DNA from: Sebaldella sp. S0638
GTDB taxonomy: Bacteria > Fusobacteriota > Fusobacteriia > Fusobacteriales > Leptotrichiaceae
Reading direction: 5' to 3'
Length of the DNA stretch: 56,683 nt
Assembly (NCBI RefSeq): GCF_024158605.1
Contig: NZ_JAMZGM010000016.1
Coordinates: 1-56,683, forward strand
Below are positions 28,078-41,585 of the stretch, in pieces (position 1 is the stretch's first letter; every line of letters starts with the position of its first letter). Below the pieces are notes generated by a model. The model did no database searches. It was not told the origin of the DNA and saw nothing but the letters and a program-made list of their open reading frames with translations. The translations under genes were made by a program, and so were the position numbers.

Positions 28078-28106
28078 TTGACTACTTTGGTATTATATAG
28101 TAGAAT
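28078..28106 (+). promoter_or_regulatory. suf operon promoter
   Basis: TTGACT (28078-28083) and TAGAAT (28101-28106) are 17 bp apart, 32 bp before the sufC ATG. Confidence 0.75.
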
Positions 28107-28137
28107 AATTGTATATATATTATTTATGGAGGTCGAA

Positions 28138-28884
28138 ATGAGTTTATTGGAGCTTAAGGAACTAAAAGCTAAAGTTGAAGATAAAGAAATTTTAAAAGGA
28201 TTGAACCTTAATATAAATAAAGGGGAAGTACATGTTATTATGGGGCCTAACGGAGCCGGAAAATCAACTCTGGCAAGTGTTTTGGTAGGACATCCTAAAT
28301 ATGAAATTTCAGGCGGGGACATAATTTTTGACGGTGAAGAGATAAATGATCTGGGTGTGGATGAAAGAGCACAAAAAGGAATGTTTTTATCTTTTCAGTA
28401 TCCTGAGGAAATACCGGGATTAACTGTGGAAGATTTTTTGAGAGCTGCTAAAGAAGCAGTATCAGGAGAAAAACAATATTTTATGCAGTTTCATCAGGAA
28501 TTAGTAGAAAAAATGGAAAAACTTCATATAGACCCTACATATGCAGACAGACATCTGAATGTGGGATTCTCAGGGGGAGAAAAAAAGAAAAATGAAATAC
28601 TGCAAATGGCAGTTTTGGAACCAAAACTGGCAATTTTGGATGAAACAGATTCCGGACTTGACAGAGATGCTACAAAGATAGTTTTTGAAGGTGTACAAAA
28701 GCTGAAAAATGATGATAACGCACTTCTTATAATAACTCATTATAACAAGGTACTTGATTATCTGAAACCTGACTTTGTCCATATATTAATGGATGGAAAA
28801 ATAGTGAAAAGCGGCGGGATAGAGCTGGTGGAATATATTGAGAAAAAGGGATACCAAAAAATGAGGGAAGAATTAGGACTTTAA
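28138..28884 (+). CDS. sufC: Fe-S cluster assembly ATPase SufC
   Basis: This 248-aa ABC ATPase starts at ATG 28138 with GGAGG 7-11 nt upstream; the open frame begins earlier but runs into the promoter. Walker A is GPNGAGKS (about residues 38-45), the signature NVGFSGGEKKKNE is near 141-153, and Walker B LAILDETDSGLD near 163-174. The GGEKKKNE variant of the ABC signature and the Asp/Ser after Walker B are SufC hallmarks. It powers the SufBCD scaffold that builds Fe-S clusters. First gene of sufCBDSU. Confidence 0.96.
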   Translation: MSLLELKELKAKVEDKEILKGLNLNINKGEVHVIMGPNGAGKSTLASVLVGHPKYEISGGDIIFDGEEINDLGVDERAQKGMFLSFQYPEEIPGLTVEDFLRAAKEAVSGEKQYFMQFHQELVEKMEKLHIDPTYADRHLNVGFSGGEKKKNEILQMAVLEPKLAILDETDSGLDRDATKIVFEGVQKLKNDDNALLIITHYNKVLDYLKPDFVHILMDGKIVKSGGIELVEYIEKKGYQKMREELGL

Positions 28885-28900
28885 AAAAGAGGTGAATGAT

Positions 28901-30313
28901 TTGGAAGACAGAAAGAAAACTTATATCGCCGATATTGAAAGAGGCGTTTATGATATAAAAGATGAAATGAAACATGAATTTACCACTAAAAAGGGTTTGA
29001 CAGAGGAGATAATAAGAACAATTTCCAAAGAAAAAAATGAACCTGAATGGATGCTTGAACACAGACTGAAATCATTGGAAGTATATAATTCCAAGCCTAT
29101 GCCTAAATGGGGTGCTGACTTATCTGATTTAGACGTAGACGATATTATCCACTATCTGCGTCCTGACAGCAAAATAATGAGTGATTCATGGGATGATGTA
29201 CCTGATTATATAAAAAATACTTTTGACAGGCTGGGAATACCTGAGGCTGAAAAACAGTCACTTGCAGGAGTGGGTGCGCAGTATGACTCAGAAGTGGTAT
29301 ACCATAGTATTCATGAGGAACTGGTAAAACAGGGAGTTATTTATACCGATATTGAGACAGCACTAAGAGAACACGAAGATATAGTAAAAGAGTATTTTAT
29401 GAAGCTGATAACTATGAATGATCATAAATTCGCCGCATTGCACGGAGCTGTGTGGTCAGGGGGATCATTTGTATATGTGCCGAAAGGTGTAAAAGTAGAC
29501 AAACCCTTACAGTCATATTTCAGGCTAAATGCTGCTGAAGCAGGACAGTTTGAGCATACACTTATAGTAGTGGAAGAAGGGGCAGATCTGCACTTCATAG
29601 AAGGATGTTCAGCGCCGAAATACCAGAAAAACGCGCTTCACGCCGGAGCAGTGGAATTATTTATAAAAAAAGGCGGAAGACTAAGATATTCGACTATAGA
29701 AAACTGGTCTAGAAATATGTATAATCTGAATACCAAAAGAGCAACAGTGGATACAGACGGAGTAATAGAATGGGTATCAGGATCATTTGGATCAAGAGTA
29801 TCAATGCTTTATCCTATGAGTATACTTAAAGGAGAGCGTGCAAGATGTGAATTTACAGGAATTACTTTTGCTTCTACAGGACAGTATCTGGATACAGGAT
29901 CAAAGGTAATACATGCAGCGCCGTATACTACATCTAATGTACATTCCAAGTCTATTTCCAAAAACGGAGGTACGGCTTTATACAGAGGACTTCTGAGAGT
30001 GGCACCCAATGCACACGGATGTAAGTCTACCGTGGAATGCGAGTCACTGATGCTTGATAATGAATCAAGATCAGATACTATACCTATTATAGAAATACAC
30101 AATGATAACATTGATATCGGGCATGAAGCCAAAATTGGAAGAATAAGCGAAGAAGCTATTTTTTATTTAATGTCAAGAGGGATTAGCAAGGATGAGGCAA
30201 AAGCCATGATAGTAAGAGGATTCGTGGAGCCGATTTCCAAAGAGCTGCCGCTTGAATACGCAGTTGAGTTAAATAAACTAATAGAGCTGGAGCTGGAAGG
30301 TACTATAGGATAG
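28901..30313 (+). CDS. sufB: Fe-S cluster assembly protein SufB
   Basis: The product is about 470 aa. The frame is open from GTG 28892, but AAGAGGTG (28887-28894) fits a TTG start at 28901 better. Conserved SufB stretches are SLAGVGAQYDSEVVYH, the beta-helix core with FIEGCSAPKYQ (Cys candidate for cluster assembly), and near the end IEIHNDNIDIGHEAKIGRIS. It is the scaffold on which the new cluster is formed with SufC and SufD. It lies 16 bp after sufC. Confidence 0.95.
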   Translation: MEDRKKTYIADIERGVYDIKDEMKHEFTTKKGLTEEIIRTISKEKNEPEWMLEHRLKSLEVYNSKPMPKWGADLSDLDVDDIIHYLRPDSKIMSDSWDDVPDYIKNTFDRLGIPEAEKQSLAGVGAQYDSEVVYHSIHEELVKQGVIYTDIETALREHEDIVKEYFMKLITMNDHKFAALHGAVWSGGSFVYVPKGVKVDKPLQSYFRLNAAEAGQFEHTLIVVEEGADLHFIEGCSAPKYQKNALHAGAVELFIKKGGRLRYSTIENWSRNMYNLNTKRATVDTDGVIEWVSGSFGSRVSMLYPMSILKGERARCEFTGITFASTGQYLDTGSKVIHAAPYTTSNVHSKSISKNGGTALYRGLLRVAPNAHGCKSTVECESLMLDNESRSDTIPIIEIHNDNIDIGHEAKIGRISEEAIFYLMSRGISKDEAKAMIVRGFVEPISKELPLEYAVELNKLIELELEGTIG

Positions 30314-30325
30314 GAGGACACTTTG

Positions 30326-31453
30326 ATGTTTAACGAAGATAATATAAAAGAGCTTGATAATTATCAGTTTAGAATAGATAACTTTAAAAAATATTCAGCT
30401 TTGTCAGCACCGAAATGGAAAAGAATCAGTCATAATGTGGAGGTTCCTGAAAATTATAAAAAATTTGACGGGGTTTCTGTATCAAATGCGGAACAGGACG
30501 GTCTTACAGTAAAGAATATAAACGAAGCATTTCAGGATATGGGAAAGTACAATAATGACAATGAATACGGGCTGAATGAATTTTTTAACACACAGGTATA
30601 TTCATTTTATAACAGCGGGAAATTTATTCATATAGGTGAAAGAAAAAAACTTGAAAATACAGTATGCATAAATTATAATTTTAATAAGGAAAATAATCTG
30701 CTTATTGATTATAACGTAATTGTAGCAGAGGATTTTTCAGAAGGAACAATTATTATAAATTATAATTCAGAAGATGATACAGAAGCATATCATAACGGAA
30801 TGATCAAAATAATAGCTAAGCCAAACTCGAAGATTAAGGTCATAAAGATACAGAATCTGAATCTGAACAGTTATAACTTCGAGGGGAGCAAAGCAGAGGT
30901 TTTTGGAAGTGCTGATGTGGCTATTTACAGTATGGAAATGGGAGCAAAGGTAAATGCCGTGAGTAATAAAAACTATCTTGAGGAAGATGGTTCCAAAATA
31001 GAAATATGGCCCGGTTATCTTGCTGACAAAGACAGAAAGGTAGACCTTGAATACTCGGTAATATTCAGAGGAAGAGATACTGCCGGTGTAATAGAAGGAA
31101 GAGGAGCTGTAAAGGATACTGCAAGAAAGGTATTCAGAGGAAATCTTTATTTTAAGAAAGGCGCAAGACACTCTGTGGGAAAAGAAGGGGAGTTTGCTAT
31201 TCTGCTGGATAAAGGTGTAAGATCTGACTCTATTCCGGGATTATTCTGTGATGAGGATGATGTAATAGGAGAACACTCTGCAAGTATAGGTAAAGTAGAT
31301 GAAAGTAAACTGTTTTATCTGATGAGCAGAGGTTTAACAGAAAATAATGCTAAGAAGCTCATAATAGAGTCTTCTTTCAAACCTATACTAAACAGTATAG
31401 ATGACCTTGAAATGAAAAATAAACTGCTGGAAGAACTGGAAAAAAGAATATAA
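30326..31453 (+). CDS. sufD: Fe-S cluster assembly protein SufD
   Basis: This 375-aa protein starts at ATG 30326, with AGGAGGA 7-13 nt upstream. The C-terminal third resembles SufB: VIEGRGAVKDTARKVFRGN, then SDSIPGLFCDEDDVIGEHSAS and SIGKVDESKLFYLMSRGL. The His in GEHSAS corresponds to the cluster-site histidine of SufD. It forms the heterodimeric scaffold with SufB and is 12 bp downstream of it. The N-terminal half is divergent, as is usual for SufD. Confidence 0.92.
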   Translation: MFNEDNIKELDNYQFRIDNFKKYSALSAPKWKRISHNVEVPENYKKFDGVSVSNAEQDGLTVKNINEAFQDMGKYNNDNEYGLNEFFNTQVYSFYNSGKFIHIGERKKLENTVCINYNFNKENNLLIDYNVIVAEDFSEGTIIINYNSEDDTEAYHNGMIKIIAKPNSKIKVIKIQNLNLNSYNFEGSKAEVFGSADVAIYSMEMGAKVNAVSNKNYLEEDGSKIEIWPGYLADKDRKVDLEYSVIFRGRDTAGVIEGRGAVKDTARKVFRGNLYFKKGARHSVGKEGEFAILLDKGVRSDSIPGLFCDEDDVIGEHSASIGKVDESKLFYLMSRGLTENNAKKLIIESSFKPILNSIDDLEMKNKLLEELEKRI

Positions 31454-31463
31454 GGAGCTCAAT

Positions 31464-32663
31464 ATGGAAATAAAAAAAGAATTTCCAATTTTTGATGATG
31501 AAAATCTGCATTATCTTGATACTGCCGCAACATCGCAAAAACCCCAGGTAGTGCTGGACAGTATAGAGAGATATTATAAAACCTATAACGGGAATCCCGG
31601 AAGAGGTTCCTACAAGCTGGTGATGGATTCCACAAGAATTTTTGAGGATTCAAGAAAGACAGTACAAAGGTTTTTGAATGCAAAAGAAAAAGAGGAAATA
31701 ATATTTACCAAAAGCACAACTGAATCTATAAATCTGCTGGCTTATTCATTTGGTCTGGAATTTATCAACGAAGGTGACGAAATAATACTTGGTATTACCA
31801 ATCATCATGCAAATATAGTTCCGTGGCAGATGGTAGCCAAAAAGAAAAAGGCAAAAATAAAGTATATTTATCTGCATGAAAACGGTCAATTTGATCTGGA
31901 CGATTTTAAATATAAAATTAGTAAAAGGACAAAGATTGTAGCTTTTTCGGCAGTTTCTAACGTAACAGGAGTAATTCATCCTATAGATGAGGTAGTGGAA
32001 ATAGCGCATAATAACGGTGCTTATGTATTAGTAGATGCTGCACAGGCTCTGCTGCATTTTCCTATAGATGTGCTAAAGAGTAATATTGATTTTCTTGCTT
32101 TTTCCGGACATAAATTATTTGCACCAATGGGGATAGGGGTCTTATACGGAAAGAGAAAACTTCTTGAAAAAATGCCGCCGTTTTTATTCGGCGGGGATAT
32201 GATAGAGTTTGTAACTGAGCAGAATTCCACGTTTGCACCTATTCCGAATAAATTCGAGGGTGGTACGCAGAATGTAGAAGGAGCTTACGGACTTTCAGAA
32301 GCGATAAAATATCTTGAAGGAATAGGATATGACCAGATAAATAAAATAGAGCATGAATTGGAAATGAAAGCTCTTTTTGAACTTCGCAATCTTGGGTTCG
32401 TAGAAACTTATCATACTGAAAATGTGGAAAGAGTGGGAGTAATTGCATTTAATGTAAAAGGAGTTCACTCGCATGATGTAGCTTTTATACTGGATTATTA
32501 CGGAGTTGGTGTAAGATCCGGACATCATTGTGCACAGCCGCTGATGAATTATTTGGAGATACCATCTTGCTGCAGGGCAAGTTTCAGTGTGTATAATGAT
32601 GCAGGAGATGTAGAAAAGCTCATAGAAGGACTTAGAAAAGTAAAGGAAGTGTTCAAGCTATGA
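31464..32663 (+). CDS. sufS: Cysteine desulfurase SufS
   Basis: This 399-aa PLP enzyme is of group II type. PLP lysine is in FSGHKLFAPMGIGVLYG (about residues 210-226). The Cys loop RSGHHCAQPLM is near residues 351-361 (HHCAQP, as in SufS). The start LHYLDTAATSQKPQVVLDSI is typical. It removes sulfur from cysteine as a persulfide and hands it to SufU, encoded next with a 4-nt overlap. GGAGCTC precedes the ATG. Confidence 0.96.
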   Translation: MEIKKEFPIFDDENLHYLDTAATSQKPQVVLDSIERYYKTYNGNPGRGSYKLVMDSTRIFEDSRKTVQRFLNAKEKEEIIFTKSTTESINLLAYSFGLEFINEGDEIILGITNHHANIVPWQMVAKKKKAKIKYIYLHENGQFDLDDFKYKISKRTKIVAFSAVSNVTGVIHPIDEVVEIAHNNGAYVLVDAAQALLHFPIDVLKSNIDFLAFSGHKLFAPMGIGVLYGKRKLLEKMPPFLFGGDMIEFVTEQNSTFAPIPNKFEGGTQNVEGAYGLSEAIKYLEGIGYDQINKIEHELEMKALFELRNLGFVETYHTENVERVGVIAFNVKGVHSHDVAFILDYYGVGVRSGHHCAQPLMNYLEIPSCCRASFSVYNDAGDVEKLIEGLRKVKEVFKL

Positions 32664-33106
32664 ATTTAGAAAAATTATATCAACAGACGATTTTAGAATA
32701 TAGCAATAGAAAAGACCTGAAAAGAGAGATGGACAGCCCGACTTATATAGAAAGAGGGCATAATCCTAACTGTGGTGATGATCTTACGCTGGAAATAAAA
32801 CTAAATTCAGATAATATAATCGAAGATGCTGCTTTTTTAGGAAACGGATGTGCGATTTCATCAGCTTCCACAGCAATGCTTATTGATCTTATAAAAGGGA
32901 AAAGCATAGAGGAAGCAAAGGAAAAAGTAGATATTTTCTTTAAGATGATGGGGCAGAAAGAAAAGCTAAGCAGCGATGAAATGAAAAAACTGGGTGATGC
33001 AGTGCTTATGGAATATGTGGCTAATATGCCTGCAAGGATAAAATGTGCGACGCTCAGCTGGCACTCGCTCAGAGTGATTATTGATAAAAATGAAGAGAAT
33101 AAGTAG
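32660..33106 (+). CDS. sufU: Sulfur-transfer protein SufU
   Basis: This 148-aa protein is of the IscU-like SufU family. Three conserved cysteines are seen: NCGDDLTL (about Cys39), FLGNGCAIS (about Cys65) and RIKCATLSWHSL (about Cys127). An Asp at the first site (CGDD) completes the zinc-binding set. It accepts sulfur from SufS by zinc-ligand swapping. Its ATG overlaps the sufS stop (ATGA). A terminator follows directly, closing the operon. Confidence 0.93.
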   Translation: MNLEKLYQQTILEYSNRKDLKREMDSPTYIERGHNPNCGDDLTLEIKLNSDNIIEDAAFLGNGCAISSASTAMLIDLIKGKSIEEAKEKVDIFFKMMGQKEKLSSDEMKKLGDAVLMEYVANMPARIKCATLSWHSLRVIIDKNEENK

Positions 33107-33466: not shown

Positions 33467-33874
33467 ATGGCTAGAAAAGATATTTATATTTATCCTGCTA
33501 TTTTTGAAGAGGAGGATGGTGGATATAATATTAGTTTTCCAAATTTAGAGGGGGCGCTTACATGTGGGGATGACTTAAGTGATTCTTTATTCATGGCTAA
33601 AGATGTGTTAGGGTTATATTTATATACTTTAGAAGAGGATGGGACAGAATTACCAGAGCCTTCATTACCTAATAGAATAAAAGTCAAAGATAATCAATTT
33701 GTTCAGCTAATTGAAGTTTATATGCCGCCGATAAGGGATGAACAGGAAAATAGGCATATAAGAAAAAACGTAACTATTTCAAAATGGGTTAATGACTTGG
33801 CTGTAAAGAAAAAGATAAATTTCTCCGCAGTTTTAGAGTCAGCTTTGAAAGAAAAATTAGGTTATAGAAAATAA
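33467..33874 (+). CDS. hicB: HicB-type antitoxin
   Basis: This 135-aa protein has a HicB partial RNase H-like domain at about residues 1-75 (IYPAIFEEEDGGYNISFPNL, then GALTCGDDLSDSLFMAKDVL). A C-terminal DNA-binding part follows (NVTISKWVNDLAVKKKINFS, about 100-120) of ribbon-helix-helix type. It neutralises HicA and represses the promoter. AGGAGG precedes the ATG. A 12-bp perfect terminator hairpin follows. Confidence 0.9.
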   Translation: MARKDIYIYPAIFEEEDGGYNISFPNLEGALTCGDDLSDSLFMAKDVLGLYLYTLEEDGTELPEPSLPNRIKVKDNQFVQLIEVYMPPIRDEQENRHIRKNVTISKWVNDLAVKKKINFSAVLESALKEKLGYRK

Positions 33875-36148: not shown

Positions 36149-37729
36149 TTACATATTTGACCAGAAATACTCGGGATATTCTTCGTCCAGTATCGCTTCA
36201 ATTTCATTCTGATCTTTTTTCAAAATTTTTTTTATAAACTCTTTCTTGTTAATTTTTTTATTTACAGCTTCTGTAAAACCATTGTCTATATATTTTTGAA
36301 TATCGGTATAATCAAAGTAAAATTTTGTTTTCAAACTTTCTATATTAAATTCCTGAAATAATACCAGTGTAATTCTGTTTGAAAAAGTTATAATAAAATC
36401 ATAATCAATATGCTTTAATTTATGAATTTCATTAATAGTCAAATAAGCAACCATCTTAAATTCCAGATAATGACTCAAACGCTGGATAAAAAAATTAATT
36501 TTTTCTATAGATGAATTAGTAATGATAACTATTTTTTTTGTATTTTCACCAAATATTCTGTTATTCAGGAGAAAAGTCTCAAAAATAAGTGTGAGCGATG
36601 AAATCTGGTGAATTGTGAGTTTTATTTTATACTCTCTTTCGAGATATCCTGTTTTTTTCAGTATGGCATTGGAAATTTTGGAGTATTTTCTGAATGTATC
36701 ATCTAATTTATCGTCATAGAATGAGTATCTCAGATAATTTTTTAATGCAGACTTATAGAGATATGCGTATACAGCGTCAAAAACCTTGTTTTTAAGATAA
36801 AATTTTGTATTTATCTGTTCTTCTATGAATGTAATCAAAAATTCCGTAATATCGCGAATATTTTCATTTTTAGGAAATTCAATATTTTTATCATAATTCA
36901 GCGACGCAATCAGATAATTAATAAAAGTATTTTCATTTTTATCAGGGAAAATTTTGTAGGGACTTGCAGTAAGAAGATGGTTTTTATCCTGTATATCAAT
37001 ACGGCAGTTTTGTTTTTGTCTGATCAGGCTGAGGTTATAGTAAATATAAAGAAGTTTTTTGGATGCATAATCCATGTTTAAGCTATTATTTCTGATAAAG
37101 TCCTGTATTTTTTTTCTGTTTTTTTCTTCTGATTTTTCCACGGATTTTTTAAAAAATTCAAATAGCTTTCTTTCTATTGGATTATTTGCCTGTCTGCTGT
37201 AAATAACATCATTTTCGTCAAGTTCAATTACACTGATAAGTCTCTGTGCAGTAAGAATACGAAATCTGCCTTCATCACCGTAAATCTTTATTCCCTTTCT
37301 GGGTATAGTTTTTACTGTAAGATTATTTTCAGCAAGATAAGTTCTCAAATATCTGGAATCTTTCTTTTTGGTAGTGAGGCTAAGCCCCATTTCCTCGTAT
37401 GCTTTTGACAGATTAATATAATCATTAAGAAAAACCTGAATTAATATAATAGCCGTTCTTTCCTCTTTTTTAGGGGAATATTCATTTAGTTCCAGTCTTT
37501 GTACAAATTCTATTTTGTCCTTGTATGTAATAGTGCTTATGACTTTTCCTCTGTAGATTTTCAGCTGCTTATCCTTAGGCAGATAAAAGTTAAGATTTTC
37601 AATATTACGTTTTATAGTGGAAAGTCCTTTTTTATATTTTTCCATTAGTATATCAAGAAAAATATCTCTTCTCTCCTGAAGGTCATTTAACAGTTTTAAT
37701 TCAAAGTGATTTATACTCAATTTTTTCAC
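36149..37729 (-). CDS. BglG/PRD-like transcriptional regulator (HTH type) next to a PTS operon
   Basis: The frame gives 526 aa from GTG 37729. AGGCGG fits TTG 37720 better, so the true start may be three codons in. The N-terminus is helix-turn-helix-like (ILMEKYKKGLSTIKRNIENL, about residues 28-47, with the RNIENLN pattern of Mga/BglG regulators). Long helical domains resembling PRDs follow, then a C-terminal part with KKIVIITNSS near residue 401 like an EIIB fold. It lies downstream of the PTS operon but behind a terminator. It probably senses PTS-sugar flux and controls that operon. The substrate cannot be read from sequence. Confidence 0.7.
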   Translation of the reverse strand: MKKLSINHFELKLLNDLQERRDIFLDILMEKYKKGLSTIKRNIENLNFYLPKDKQLKIYRGKVISTITYKDKIEFVQRLELNEYSPKKEERTAIILIQVFLNDYINLSKAYEEMGLSLTTKKKDSRYLRTYLAENNLTVKTIPRKGIKIYGDEGRFRILTAQRLISVIELDENDVIYSRQANNPIERKLFEFFKKSVEKSEEKNRKKIQDFIRNNSLNMDYASKKLLYIYYNLSLIRQKQNCRIDIQDKNHLLTASPYKIFPDKNENTFINYLIASLNYDKNIEFPKNENIRDITEFLITFIEEQINTKFYLKNKVFDAVYAYLYKSALKNYLRYSFYDDKLDDTFRKYSKISNAILKKTGYLEREYKIKLTIHQISSLTLIFETFLLNNRIFGENTKKIVIITNSSIEKINFFIQRLSHYLEFKMVAYLTINEIHKLKHIDYDFIITFSNRITLVLFQEFNIESLKTKFYFDYTDIQKYIDNGFTEAVNKKINKKEFIKKILKKDQNEIEAILDEEYPEYFWSNM

Positions 37730-37795
37730 CGCCTGATTTATTATATAATCAATAATTTTATATATATTAGCATACTTTTGAAATATTGAAAATAA

Positions 37796-37822
37796 AAAGA
37801 CATTCCGTATTGAAATGTCCTT
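37796..37822 (-). terminator. Terminator of the PTS-lyase-deacetylase operon
   Basis: On the minus strand AAGGACATT pairs with AATGTCTTT around a 9-nt loop, then TTTATTTTC. It separates the ChbG-like gene from the regulator gene. Confidence 0.75.
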
Positions 37823-37826
37823 TTAT

Positions 37827-38615
37827 CTATAAATCAGAGTATTTACAGTATTCAAAGCCATGTTCCCTGAGAATATTATCAATATCCGGATCACATAACA
37901 TCTCTACTTCACGCATTCTCGCAAGATTAAATGAAGAGCCGAAATAAATTTGGGAATCTATGTATCCGGGATGGCATGAGCCTTCCACACTCATATATTT
38001 TTGATAGATTTCAGCATTTTCCCTGATAATTTTATGTAAATCCTGTTTAATATATTCATATGAAAAATCCATTTTTTTCATTTCGGGAAAATTAAATAGA
38101 TTCCAAAAAATATCTGTTTTTAATATATTTTTATCTGTGATGTTTTTTTCAATATCAAAGCAGTTTCTCAAAGGAAGATCATATTTTTTCGCCAGTGCTT
38201 CTGATACTTTGCAGTGTTTTTCAAAAGAGTGAACATAGTGATGCGAATCCAGATGCGTAAGTCTGACTCCTGCTAAAAGAAGCCTGCTGATCTGTGCGCT
38301 CCACTCTTCATACAGCTGATCAAGGTCAGCAGTATCAGAATTTTCTTTATATGTCTTTAAGCTTTTAAAATTTCCGTTATTATCTGTGAGGCTGTCCACA
38401 TTATCCAAAATCGGTTTTCCGCAGGTAAGAGTCAAATGAGCTCCTATTCCAAGCTTTGGGTTTTCTTTCATTAATTCTATACCGTGGTCAAAGCCGTACA
38501 TATTAGCCATCATAGTAGCAGAAGTAAGAATTCCGTTTCTGTGTGTTTCGATAATTCCAAGATTAATTGCTTTAGAATAGCCAAAATCATCTGCATTTAT
38601 TACAATTTTCCCCAT
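37827..38615 (-). CDS. YdjC/ChbG-family carbohydrate deacetylase
   Basis: This 262-aa protein has the family start IVINADDFGYSKAIN (about residues 4-18), whose Asp-Asp holds the metal. GAHLTLTCGKP (about 57-67) and HLDSHHYVH (about 119-127) supply the His ligands. Known members remove N-acetyl groups from chitooligosaccharide or diacetylchitobiose phosphate after PTS uptake. It is 16 bp after the lyase and in one transcript with the PTS permease, so its likely substrate is the imported sugar phosphate. The exact sugar is unknown. Confidence 0.85.
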   Translation of the reverse strand: MGKIVINADDFGYSKAINLGIIETHRNGILTSATMMANMYGFDHGIELMKENPKLGIGAHLTLTCGKPILDNVDSLTDNNGNFKSLKTYKENSDTADLDQLYEEWSAQISRLLLAGVRLTHLDSHHYVHSFEKHCKVSEALAKKYDLPLRNCFDIEKNITDKNILKTDIFWNLFNFPEMKKMDFSYEYIKQDLHKIIRENAEIYQKYMSVEGSCHPGYIDSQIYFGSSFNLARMREVEMLCDPDIDNILREHGFEYCKYSDL

Positions 38616-38630
38616 AATAAAGACCCCCTG

Positions 38631-40007
38631 TTATTTTCCGATGTTTTCTTTTTTTATTTTATCAGCAGTTTCATAAGCAATCCGGCTCAGATTTACGGCT
38701 GTCTGCTCAGATAATCCTGTGTAATTACGGGGATCAATCATAAATTTTATATCCTCATCAGAAAAATGTTTGGAAATAAGAGGATTGGCAATAAGATTTT
38801 TATAAAAATCCTCACCGTCTTTAGCAGTTTTTATGGCTATTTCGTATACCAGCTCATGAGCCTTATCTTTTCCAAGTGTTTCTGATAATTTCATCATTAT
38901 AAATTCGCTATTATCAAGTCCCTTATTCATATTAGCATTGGAAAGAAGCTTTTCTTTATGAGGAGAAAGTGTTCCTGTAAGTTCCTCACAACGCAGAAGA
39001 ATCTCTGTCATTAGTTCCAGTGCTTCTTCAAGTAATCCGTCAAATAGCATATAAGAAGAACTGTCTCCTTCATAAGGCCTTGCACCTGAATACATCCCCA
39101 CAGGAATCAATGAGTAAAGTTTTTGTGAATTAGCAATGATGCCTTTAGCAAGTTTAGGATTTATTTTATGAGGCATTGTACTGCTTCCCACAGTGCCGTC
39201 TTTAAAACTTTCAGAAACTTCACCTATTTCTTCAAGAGTAGTGCTGTACACTTCCTCGCCTATTTTATGGCACGCATTGGCAAGAAGTGCGAGATTCATA
39301 ATATATTCTGTTTTATGAGCAGTAATATTACGTGACGGAACGAGCATAGGCTCCATATCCAGAATTTCCGCCACGCGCTTTTGTATTTTTAGTCCTGTTT
39401 CTCCCATTGTGCTGAATGTTCCCACAGCACCGCCCATCATAATTGTAAATACTCTTTTTTCAGCTTCCCTCATACGTTCTGCACAGTTCAGAAAATCACT
39501 GATCCACACGGAAACTTTATACCCGTATGTAATAGGCGTGGCATGTCTGCCGTGAGTACGTCCCGGCATAACACTGTCTTTATGCTCATAAGCAAGCTTT
39601 GACAGATTATGCAGAATATCAGCCGTAAGTTCCATAAATTTCTGATGGATTTGTTTTGTGACAAGGAGTTGTGCGCTTTGCTGTATATTTTGTGTAGTAA
39701 GACCATAGTGGATATATTTTCCGCTGTCTCCGGGACAGGCTTTTACGAGTACCTTTAAAAAAGGTACAAAACCATGTCCGATTTCCTGATAAATTTTTTC
39801 CATTTCAATTAAGTCTATATTTTCAAGTTTTGCAGCTTTTTCTATTTCATCAGCGGCTTCCTTCGGGATAATTCCGTATTCTGCCTGTGCTTTTGCAAGT
39901 GCAGTTTCTAATTTTAACCAGCTTTCATACTTGGCTTCTTTTGTAAAAAGTTTTCTAATTCCTCTGTCGTCCATTGTTAATGTTTTTGAATCATATAATG
40001 CCCGCAT
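38631..40007 (-). CDS. Aspartase/fumarase-superfamily lyase (adenylosuccinate lyase-like)
   Basis: This 458-aa protein has the superfamily signature GSSTMPHKINP (about residue 275), plus HYGLTTQN and MPGRTHGRHATPI. These give the C1 and C2 active-site regions and the mobile Ser loop. Family members eliminate fumarate from N-linked succinyl substrates. It differs from housekeeping PurB: the loop reads PHKINP rather than PHKRNP, and the usual WHERDISHSS block is replaced by SGARPYEGDSSSYMLF. Its place between a PTS permease and a sugar deacetylase is odd for a purine enzyme. I infer action on a modified sugar or amino sugar. AGGAGG lies before the ATG. Confidence 0.8.
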   Translation of the reverse strand: MRALYDSKTLTMDDRGIRKLFTKEAKYESWLKLETALAKAQAEYGIIPKEAADEIEKAAKLENIDLIEMEKIYQEIGHGFVPFLKVLVKACPGDSGKYIHYGLTTQNIQQSAQLLVTKQIHQKFMELTADILHNLSKLAYEHKDSVMPGRTHGRHATPITYGYKVSVWISDFLNCAERMREAEKRVFTIMMGGAVGTFSTMGETGLKIQKRVAEILDMEPMLVPSRNITAHKTEYIMNLALLANACHKIGEEVYSTTLEEIGEVSESFKDGTVGSSTMPHKINPKLAKGIIANSQKLYSLIPVGMYSGARPYEGDSSSYMLFDGLLEEALELMTEILLRCEELTGTLSPHKEKLLSNANMNKGLDNSEFIMMKLSETLGKDKAHELVYEIAIKTAKDGEDFYKNLIANPLISKHFSDEDIKFMIDPRNYTGLSEQTAVNLSRIAYETADKIKKENIGK

Positions 40008-40031
40008 TGTATTTCCTCCTGATTTTATTTA

Positions 40032-41585
40032 TTAGTGTCCGAGTTTGTCGTCAACTGCATTTCTGACAAATTCCACATGTGGTCCGTAAACAACATGGAT
40101 GTGATTTTTTTGCGGGAAAAATGTACCTGAAGCACCGGCTTTCTTTATCAGGTCTTTATCCACAATATCCTGATTTTTCAGATCTATTCTCAGCCGTGTA
40201 ATACAGTTTTCCACGTGTACTATATTTTCTCTTCCGCCGAGAGCTGTTACCAGCATATCGGCAATTTCATCATATTTTTTGCTTTTTAAAAGATCTGAAT
40301 TCTGCACTACCTGCTCTCTTCCCGGAGTGGCAAGTCCGAATTTTATAATAAAATATTTGAATACAAAATAGAAAACAACAAAGTTTATTATTCCAAGAAA
40401 TATGAGATTCAGCCAGTTTGTATGTTCGTAAAGCAGTCCGAATATAGCAAAATCAAAGATAGTTCCTCTTATATAACCGATGGCTATATCCAAAAATGCC
40501 ATTGGTATAGTCATTAATCCGCATAATGCAGAATAAATTATATATAACAGCGGTGACAGAAACAGGAATGAAAATTCCACAGGTTCTGTTACATTGCCGA
40601 GAAATGCAGTAAGTACAATTGTCAGTATAATACCTTTGGCTATTTTCTTATTTTCCTTGAAAGCAGTGTGATACATAGCCAGTCCTATAGCAGGGATTCT
40701 AAACATAGTATTCAGCATCTGACCTGCACCGAGATATGAAGTAAGCATAGGCATAAGTCTTTTCCAGCTTTCGTGTTCTGGTCCCAGTTTAAATAAAATT
40801 TCATTTGTAGCGTTAAGGACACCTATGTAAGATTCGCCGTTTATAATATATGTTCCTCCTGCGGGAGTAAATCTTACCACAGAAGCCAGTACGTGATGGA
40901 GACCAAAAGGTATAAGGGCACGGTTTAAAAACCAGTAAATACCTACTCCGTAATATTTATTCATAAATATAAATGATATACTAATCAGAAATTTTGTAAG
41001 AAATCCCCATATAAAAGGTATAATAAATCCAATAGGTATCATATAGGCAAATGTAATAATAGGCACGGATTTTTTCCCTCCGAAGAATGCAAAGACAAGA
41101 GGCAGTTCAAGTTTATAATATCTGTCAGCCGCTCTTGCAGCAACAATTCCGGAAATAATACCTCCTATGGCATCAATACGAAGAGTGTGTATACCCAAAA
41201 CCATTCCTTGACCTACTACTGTGGGGTTTTCCGTAACGATATTTCCTGTAAGTGTCAGATAGACATTCATAGTAACAAGAAGAGTAAGATAACCAAGTAC
41301 AGATGAAAAAACAGCTATCCCTTTTTCCTTTTTTGATAATCCGTAAGCAACACCCATTGCAAATAATAACGGTATATTATTAAAAATAACAGTGGAAATA
41401 TTTTTCAAACTTTCAAATACCGCCTGAAGAACACCGTTTCCGAGAAAGGGCATTCTTTCTATAAGGTAAGCCTGCGTCAGTGCTCCCGTGATACCCATTA
41501 ACATTCCTATAGGAGCCATAACGCCTATAGGCAGAAGTAAAGACCGTCCAAAGGTCTGAATATCCTGTTTTAGCTTTTCTTTCAT
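40032..41585 (-). CDS. PTS sugar permease EIIBC, glucose/GlcNAc/maltose family
   Basis: This 517-aa protein has an N-terminal EIIC domain (residues 1-400, about ten membrane segments). It includes NRALIPFGLHHVLA near 220 and the substrate-site GNVTEPVEFSFLF near 340. A C-terminal EIIB domain follows, with the phosphorylated Cys in VHVENCITRLRIDL (about residue 463). No EIIA is fused or adjacent, so a general EIIA must serve it. It imports and phosphorylates a sugar. It is the first gene of the operon with the lyase and the ChbG-like deacetylase. Closest in style to MalX-type permeases, but the substrate is not known. Confidence 0.88.
   Translation of the reverse strand: MKEKLKQDIQTFGRSLLLPIGVMAPIGMLMGITGALTQAYLIERMPFLGNGVLQAVFESLKNISTVIFNNIPLLFAMGVAYGLSKKEKGIAVFSSVLGYLTLLVTMNVYLTLTGNIVTENPTVVGQGMVLGIHTLRIDAIGGIISGIVAARAADRYYKLELPLVFAFFGGKKSVPIITFAYMIPIGFIIPFIWGFLTKFLISISFIFMNKYYGVGIYWFLNRALIPFGLHHVLASVVRFTPAGGTYIINGESYIGVLNATNEILFKLGPEHESWKRLMPMLTSYLGAGQMLNTMFRIPAIGLAMYHTAFKENKKIAKGIILTIVLTAFLGNVTEPVEFSFLFLSPLLYIIYSALCGLMTIPMAFLDIAIGYIRGTIFDFAIFGLLYEHTNWLNLIFLGIINFVVFYFVFKYFIIKFGLATPGREQVVQNSDLLKSKKYDEIADMLVTALGGRENIVHVENCITRLRIDLKNQDIVDKDLIKKAGASGTFFPQKNHIHVVYGPHVEFVRNAVDDKLGH

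Follow-up and report, generated by a model that had tools for sequence, protein, structure and literature searches.

In the chb operon (ChbBCA-R-F-G), chitobiose is imported by the phosphotransferase system (PTS), the deacetylase ChbG acts on the sugar phosphate, and the 6-phospho-glycosidase ChbF follows. N-acetylmuramic acid is handled by MurP-MurQ-MurR, in which the SIS-fold etherase MurQ releases lactate, and the fra, frl and gfr loci serve Amadori sugars with SIS-type deglycases and other transporters, and have no lyase. Here we analyze a 56,683-nucleotide stretch of Sebaldella sp. S0638 (the window; contig C16 in a draft genome of 4.27 Mb), in which genes for an EIIBC permease, a lyase of the aspartase/fumarase superfamily and a YdjC/ChbG-type deacetylase form one operon. 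Judging from its sequence and its relatives, this operon probably serves the catabolism of an N-acetylated amino sugar carrying a C4-dicarboxylate, by import, deacetylation and elimination of fumarate. The core of the system is the EIIBC and the lyase, a correction to the trio put forward in the initial annotation of this DNA. Full-text searches of an open-licence library listed no paper recognized as describing the EIIBC-lyase-deacetylase combination.

Organization of the operon

The three genes follow one another with gaps of 24 bp (EIIBC-lyase) and 15 bp (lyase-YdjC), and the coordinates and a Pfam scan confirm the gene families, positions and spacing initially annotated:

40032-41585, minus strand: EIIBC permease of the glucose-family PTS, 517 aa; an EIIA domain was not found in the protein
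38631-40007, minus strand: aspartase/fumarase-superfamily lyase, 458 aa; not PurB, ArgH or CMLE by curated cut-offs
37827-38615, minus strand: YdjC/ChbG-type deacetylase of a lyase-linked subfamily, 262 aa; Pfam YdjC
37780-37830 (stretch folded), minus strand: stem-loop and T run, terminator of the three-gene transcript, from RNA folding
36149-37729, minus strand: Mga/PRD-type transcription regulator, 526 aa; GTG start

The EIIBC scores above the Pfam cut-offs for PTS_EIIC (190 bits) and PTS_EIIB (49.5 bits) and passes none of the more specific NCBIfam models, of which MalX is the best (375 bits against a cut-off of 632), followed by GlcB (357 against 592) and NagE (316 against 553). The terminator proposed for the operon is borne out by the RNA 3' of the YdjC gene, which folds at -17 kcal/mol (z -7.26), a stability that none of 200 shuffles reached, although this stem-loop was not among the hits of a simple scan. 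The regulator beyond it is therefore probably a separate transcript. The single promoter that had also been proposed is unproven, the 30 promoter-like matches showing no excess over the shuffled expectation of 28.3 (standard deviation 6.7).

Conservation of the EIIBC-lyase pair

Orthologs of the lyase with 52-73% identity occur in scattered Bacilli and Enterobacterales. We tabulated 45 loci besides the window, which is added in counts out of 46; one record is counted twice (L027 and L083), L178 has a lyase of only 40% identity, and L052, whose lyase is truncated, was omitted from trees and residue counts. Genes up to five positions from the lyase were labeled by BLAST against a small set of reference proteins, using identity thresholds of our choosing. 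In 42 of the 45 loci, an EIIBC gene lies directly upstream of the lyase gene on the same strand, encoding a protein 53-69% identical to that of the window, and the gap is at most 41 bp in 40 of those 42. The lyase-linked EIIBCs form a single clade (43/43 full-length rows, SH-aLRT 100) when compared with 20 further EIIBCs, of which 19 come from lyase-carrying genomes; the 43 include the window and L178 and omit a broken copy from Enterococcus dispar. An earlier tree with 27 rows had already given the same clade, and identity to the window EIIBC does not exceed 39% for the other EIIBCs found in 11 lyase-carrying genomes. Both EIIBC trees, like the NagA-like and character-change trees used below, come from short searches with SH-aLRT only; the lyase and YdjC trees were bootstrapped.

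This gene-neighborhood search, suggested with the initial annotation, also recovered the full trio in six Lactobacillales loci, so that the trio is conserved beyond Sebaldella. Among the Sebaldella genome and 39 relatives, an ortholog of the lyase was found in the former only (the best score in the other 39 was 74.4 bits), and the idea that the trio is a one-off of this genome was overturned by the Lactobacillales search. The lyase is present in 16 of 246 genomes of the Citrobacter family and 3 of 394 of the Citrobacter order (two at 38-39% identity), in 8 of 105 genomes of the Enterococcus family, 22 of 395 of its order (one at 40% identity; seven also in the family sample) and 4 of 398 of its class (one at 30% identity). 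The samples of the Citrobacter family and order and of the Enterococcus order and class were drawn evenly from larger groups. A contig scan of genomes gave five loci at 58-61% identity (two Oceanobacillus, two Citrobacter and E. dispar), and a plasmid collection gave loci in Proteus mirabilis (filed as a plasmid, 4.1 Mb), on a conjugative Klebsiella aerogenes plasmid and on a Companilactobacillus plasmid. A blastn search of 20,395 Escherichia coli records, with the EIIBC-lyase stretch of Citrobacter as query, gave no match. The patchy distribution is as expected of lateral transfer, and a cluster scattered in this way over gut and environmental bacteria, also on plasmids, suggests a niche nutrient. 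In the trees, the window lyase groups with those of Proteus and genome G389, and its EIIBC with a set holding the Oceanobacillus, Citrobacter and Enterococcus ones; since the two trees are not identical, parts of the system have probably been exchanged.

The upstream EIIBC is missing from L031, L052 and L178. On the Companilactobacillus plasmid pLNT-1 (L031, 1001-9383), the lyase gene comes last after those of a 6-phospho-alpha-glucosidase, an alpha-glucoside PTS, an EIIA and an alpha-glucosidase, a possible hint at an alpha-linked sugar. In L052 (7255-8795), the lyase is truncated, the regulator is short and an EIIBC was not found, and in E. dispar (L028, 5434-6770) the lyase-linked EIIBC is broken by stops; these decaying copies suggest that the nutrient is not always available. 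L178 (5714-10235), from a genome of the Lactobacillales order, has its 40%-identical lyase directly paired with a fumarase and a related EIIBC (56%) on the opposite strand, and is perhaps an early branch of the system.

The lyase is distinct from PurB, ArgH and CMLE

The lyase passes the Pfam models Lyase_1 (115.5 bits, cut-off 27) and ADSL_C (49.7 bits, cut-off 32.7). An SSxMPxKxNP loop, a TH motif and a conserved His are typical of the aspartase/fumarase superfamily. All are found here, and His78, His100, Thr151, His152, Ser275, Ser276, Lys281 and Asn283 are invariant in 44/44 lyases. Conservation alone also draws attention to Lys285, Lys288 and Arg310. Identity as ArgH or CMLE was ruled out on model cut-offs, the scores being 64.7 bits with TIGR00838 (ArgH, cut-off 279.5) and, for CMLE, 186 with TIGR02426 (cut-off 356) and 224 with NF006554 (cut-off 595). 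With the PurB model TIGR00928, the lyase reaches 245.7 bits, below the cut-off of 326.2, whereas another protein of the same genome (contig C66) passes with 383.8 bits. The lyase is thus not the only purB of the genome, a possibility raised with the initial annotation, and the genome's argH on contig C15 likewise passes its model.

As had been pointed out from the sequence, the lyase lacks the PHKRNP and WHERDISHSS marks of PurB. It has PHKINP instead, RPYEGDSSSYMLFD replaces the LWHERDISHSSAER of a Bacillus-type PurB (L036), and the Arg positions in the WHERDISHSSAER stretch of that PurB type are lost. However, the purB products of the same genome (L040) and of Citrobacter (L039) likewise deviate from the PHKRNP and WHERDISHSSxER marks, which not every PurB carries; the curated cut-offs therefore make a better criterion. 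The phylogeny called for at the outset agrees with them, the orthologs forming a clade of their own (99/97 support, 29 rows) that excludes argH and seven proteins scoring above the purB cut-off. Bootstraps were run for this tree, which carries a long-branch warning among the outgroups.

A purine role was rejected on the curated cut-offs, the purB elsewhere in the genome and the changed PurB motifs. That a second adenylosuccinate lyase, or some other purine enzyme, has landed in a sugar operon by chance would agree with the name "adenylosuccinate lyase family protein" in annotated plasmid records, but is extremely improbable: besides the low model score and the lost Arg positions, all five lyase-carrying genomes tested have a purB above the cut-off, and the lyase is tied to one EIIBC clade across distant hosts.

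The structure model of the lyase has a pLDDT of 78.5, with residues 1-10, 151-154, 258-282 and 312-314 under 50. Naming a substrate from the nearest fold was tried and given up, Tad1, CMLE, a fumarate lyase and human ASL all lying within 1.3 Z units.

Two families of lyase-linked deacetylases

The window YdjC protein passes the Pfam YdjC model (187 bits) and scores 208.9 bits with the ChbG equivalog NF002559, below its cut-off of 227. A YdjC gene directly follows the lyase gene in six Lactobacillales loci (L165, L167, L168, L169, L171 and L173; 47-52% identity), and the window protein and these six group together (94/95; 92% of 200 bootstrap trees) against ten other YdjC proteins, among them two of the three other copies of the window genome. 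Elsewhere in that genome (L163, contig C45, 5826-7997), an EIIBC 32% identical to that of the window lies 21 bp from a YdjC gene, so that PTS-YdjC pairs recur there without the lyase.

A NagA-like amidohydrolase is encoded in 8 of the 45 loci (five enteric loci, L168, L173 and L177), L168 and L173 having both kinds of deacetylase. These proteins form one clade (8/8, SH-aLRT 100), and seven of the eight pass TIGR00221. All eight have [ST]G[IL]T where 10/10 ordinary NagA have DGxH, and they retain the EGP, GH, TH and [ST]D motifs. All five enteric hosts encode a second NagA elsewhere (508-588 bits), and in the window genome three NagA exceed the cut-off; the check covered these hosts and the window genome. 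The lyase-linked NagA-like proteins therefore probably act on something else, and the lyase-linked deacetylases are unlikely to serve plain N-acetylglucosamine 6-phosphate. By their sequences, the YdjC and NagA-like proteins belong to two unrelated deacetylase families, both with lyase-linked subfamilies.

At least one deacetylase lies within five genes of the lyase in 13 of the 46 loci, which takes at least eight gains or losses on the lyase tree. This corrects the initial annotation, a NagA-like protein being the deacetylase, or one of two, in 8 of the other 45 loci and 33 of the 46 having no neighboring deacetylase. Together with the YdjC gene found beside another EIIBC in the window genome, this last count would suit a YdjC gene that is an unrelated passenger of a system consisting only of EIIBC and lyase. 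We nevertheless consider a passenger very unlikely, since the lyase-YdjC order is retained in six other loci, the linked YdjC proteins group separately, and NagA-like enzymes adjoin in eight loci.

Neighboring genes point to fumarate as the probable product

In 11 of the 45 loci (L166-L176, all Lactobacillales), or 12 with L178, a class II fumarase gene lies no more than five genes from the lyase. Six of the 11 exceed the fumC_II cut-off of 664.75 (670-690 bits), and for the other five this is the best model, at 643-663 bits; the L178 fumarase scores 642 bits. The fumarases of L168, L173 and L176 lie just below the 55% identity threshold and were added by hand after checking. A malic enzyme accompanies the lyase in 9 of the 45 loci, and Pfam domains bear out the assignment in L051 and L166; the count omits a malic/malolactic-type enzyme that belongs to another family and lies further upstream in L176. 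Several clusters have the order EIIBC-lyase-(YdjC)-malic enzyme-fumarase-RpiR, or RpiR before the malic enzyme; most of the gaps span tens of bases. As fumarase and malic enzyme turn fumarate into pyruvate, they indicate fumarate as the product of the lyase. Fumarate is probably what the lyase releases, and these neighbors are the strongest pointer to its reaction. They support the release of fumarate guessed in the initial annotation, whose alternative, that the lyase opens the amine, found no support in this analysis. Because the neighbors predict a product, the idea is testable by a simple assay at 240 nm.

A KdgM-type porin, of a family for acidic oligosaccharides, follows the lyase in 2 of the 45 loci. 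L054 and L055, of the Enterobacterales order, have a sister lyase (38-39% identity) flanked by a DcuC C4-dicarboxylate carrier on one side and a KdgM-type porin on the other (neighbor domains were scanned on L054); with an AraC-like gene upstream, recognized by eye, and no PTS, this is a different use of the same lyase type. Lyases about 40% identical to that of the window occur with peptide-type ABC transporters on Sinorhizobium, Cereibacter and Rhizobium plasmids (L032, L033 and L034); the Cereibacter plasmid also has a TRAP transporter next to which a class II fumarase, an enolase-superfamily protein and a second lyase are encoded.

Proposed pathway and alternatives

From these elements we infer that the substrate is an N-acetylhexosamine to which a C4-dicarboxylate of malyl or aspartyl type is attached through oxygen or nitrogen. 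The EIIBC would import and phosphorylate it, using the general EIIA-Glc or, in some hosts, an EIIA encoded next door. A dedicated deacetylase, of YdjC type in the window and NagA-derived in some relatives, would strip the N-acetyl group, and the lyase would, before or after this step, beta-eliminate the acid as fumarate from the O-malyl or N-aspartyl substituent. The remaining amino-sugar phosphate would enter glycolysis, and in some Lactobacillales the fumarase and malic enzyme of the same cluster would take fumarate to malate and pyruvate. Import, phosphorylation, deacetylation and dicarboxylate elimination were the working model of the initial annotation, for which conservation, the dedicated clades and the fumarase and malic enzyme neighbors now argue.

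Among known metabolites, N-acetylglucosamine-malate (GlcNAc-malate) or glucosamine-malate (GlcN-malate), the core of bacillithiol, a widespread thiol, fits best, because GlcNAc-malate has an acetyl group for the deacetylase and malate for the lyase. As nothing in the genomes names the compound, this identification is tentative. Both are metabolites of bacillithiol biosynthesis and breakdown. Passages of PMC4101496 describe GlcNAc-Mal (spelt "maleate" there), its deacetylation by BshB and a presumed recycling of GlcN-Mal. The system might, equally tentatively, scavenge GlcNAc-malate or GlcN-malate: the PTS would phosphorylate the O-glycoside, the amine would be exposed, and the lyase would cut the glycosidic bond by elimination of fumarate and not by hydrolysis, which, if true, would add a new mode of glycoside cleavage. 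N-succinyl-glucosamine, suggested with the initial annotation, is an amide and on chemical grounds would offer no leaving group for the proposed elimination.

The main rival substrate, which we judge unlikely, is an N-linked aspartate sugar, i.e. an Amadori or Heyns compound such as fructose-Asp or glucos-2-yl-Asp, phosphorylated to the 6-phosphate by the PTS. The lyase would then cut the C-N bond like PurB, yielding fumarate and an amino-sugar phosphate, which for a Heyns compound would be glucosamine 6-phosphate, in one step. Such a reaction agrees with the lyase scoring higher against models of PurB type (C-N lyase) and CMLE type than against aspartase or fumarase models, and with the 33 loci lacking an adjacent deacetylase. 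On the other hand, two dedicated deacetylase subfamilies would be left without a role, and no FraB-, FrlB- or GfrF-type deglycase was recognized by eye near the lyase, most unlabeled neighbors being unscanned.

Several observations weigh against an acetylated, dicarboxylate-bearing substrate that yields fumarate. The Glu after KxNP, kept in 8 PurB/ArgH comparison rows, is Lys288 in 44/44 lyases, so that the chemistry of the lyase may differ, and the superfamily members CMLE, trans-aconitate decarboxylase and XcbD do not make fumarate. With parts of the active site poorly predicted, we make no pocket or docking claims, and the modeled fold decides nothing about the substrate. The fumarase (4 changes on the tree) and the malic enzyme (2) are confined to one lyase subclade, that of the window lyase, so that their loci provide few independent lines of evidence; neither gene is present in the window operon. 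Deacetylases are absent within five genes in most loci, where either the substrate is not acetylated or a housekeeping NagA suffices, and three further YdjC genes exist in the window genome, of which one lies beside a different glucose-family EIIBC. In plasmid locus L031, the lyase keeps company with alpha-glucosidases and another PTS.

Part of this evidence would also suit a lyase performing other superfamily chemistry (cycloisomerization, decarboxylation or thiol addition), with the fumarase and malic enzyme serving a different C4 acid. Among its nearest sequence and fold models are Tad1, CMLE, XcbD and a fumarate lyase whose substrate is unclear, and Asn107, like Lys288, stands where PurB commonly has another residue. 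Still, none of the 44 lyases departs from the SS loop and His positions, and without fumarate it is difficult to account for a fumarase near the lyase in 11 of the 45 loci. Other chemistry is therefore distinctly improbable.

Regulators and neighboring genes

The regulator gene next to the operon probably controls it. The window protein matches no Pfam model at E<=0.001; of six homologs scanned, five have the Mga helix-turn-helix domain and two have PRD (E<=0.001), one above the PRD cut-off. The initial label "PRD-like" is therefore fair but weak, resting on the homologs and finding no Pfam match in the window protein itself. Homologs of this Mga/PRD type (26-40% identity) lie near 26 of the 45 lyase loci, 17 upstream on the other strand, six downstream on the other strand and three on the same strand. 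An RpiR-type regulator is found near 17 of the 45, and L031 and L178 have neither type at the thresholds used.

Elsewhere in the window, a plus-strand gene run at 28078-33106 that ends in a SufU-like protein resembles a SUF (iron-sulfur) assembly operon, recognized by eye only, and a protein at 33467-33874 has a HicB-like antitoxin domain (Pfam PF15919).

Comparison with known systems

If the proposed pathway is right, it is a sugar catabolism in which a lyase of purine-pathway type replaces a glycosidase or etherase. It would also give a function to a lyase annotated as "adenylosuccinate lyase family" and to two deacetylase subfamilies that resemble NagA or ChbG by family models. The lyase has the fold, the Lyase_1 and ADSL_C pair, the catalytic His and the SS loop in common with PurB, but falls below the purB cut-off and differs in the WHERDISHSSAER stretch and the Glu after KxNP. 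Similarly, most of the NagA-like proteins of the relatives pass the NagA model, yet they form a separate clade without DGxH.

At the level of the pathway, the fra, frl and gfr loci would have in common with the window operon a sugar-amino acid conjugate that is phosphorylated and then split, with SIS-type deglycases and other transporters in place of the lyase and the EIIBC. The chb operon would be alike in combining PTS import, a YdjC/ChbG deacetylase acting on the sugar phosphate and a bond-cleaving enzyme. However, the last enzyme would be a beta-eliminating lyase in the window and is ChbF in chb, the EIIBC belongs to the glucose family and not to the lactose/chitobiose family, and the window YdjC protein lies under the ChbG equivalog cut-off. 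MurP-MurQ-MurR resembles the window operon in its EIIBC without EIIA and, under the proposed pathway, in an acidic amino sugar whose acid side chain is removed by a lyase; its RpiR-type regulator is of a type found near 17 of the 45 relatives of the operon. In contrast to the SIS-fold MurQ with its release of lactate, the window lyase has the all-alpha fold of its superfamily and would release fumarate.

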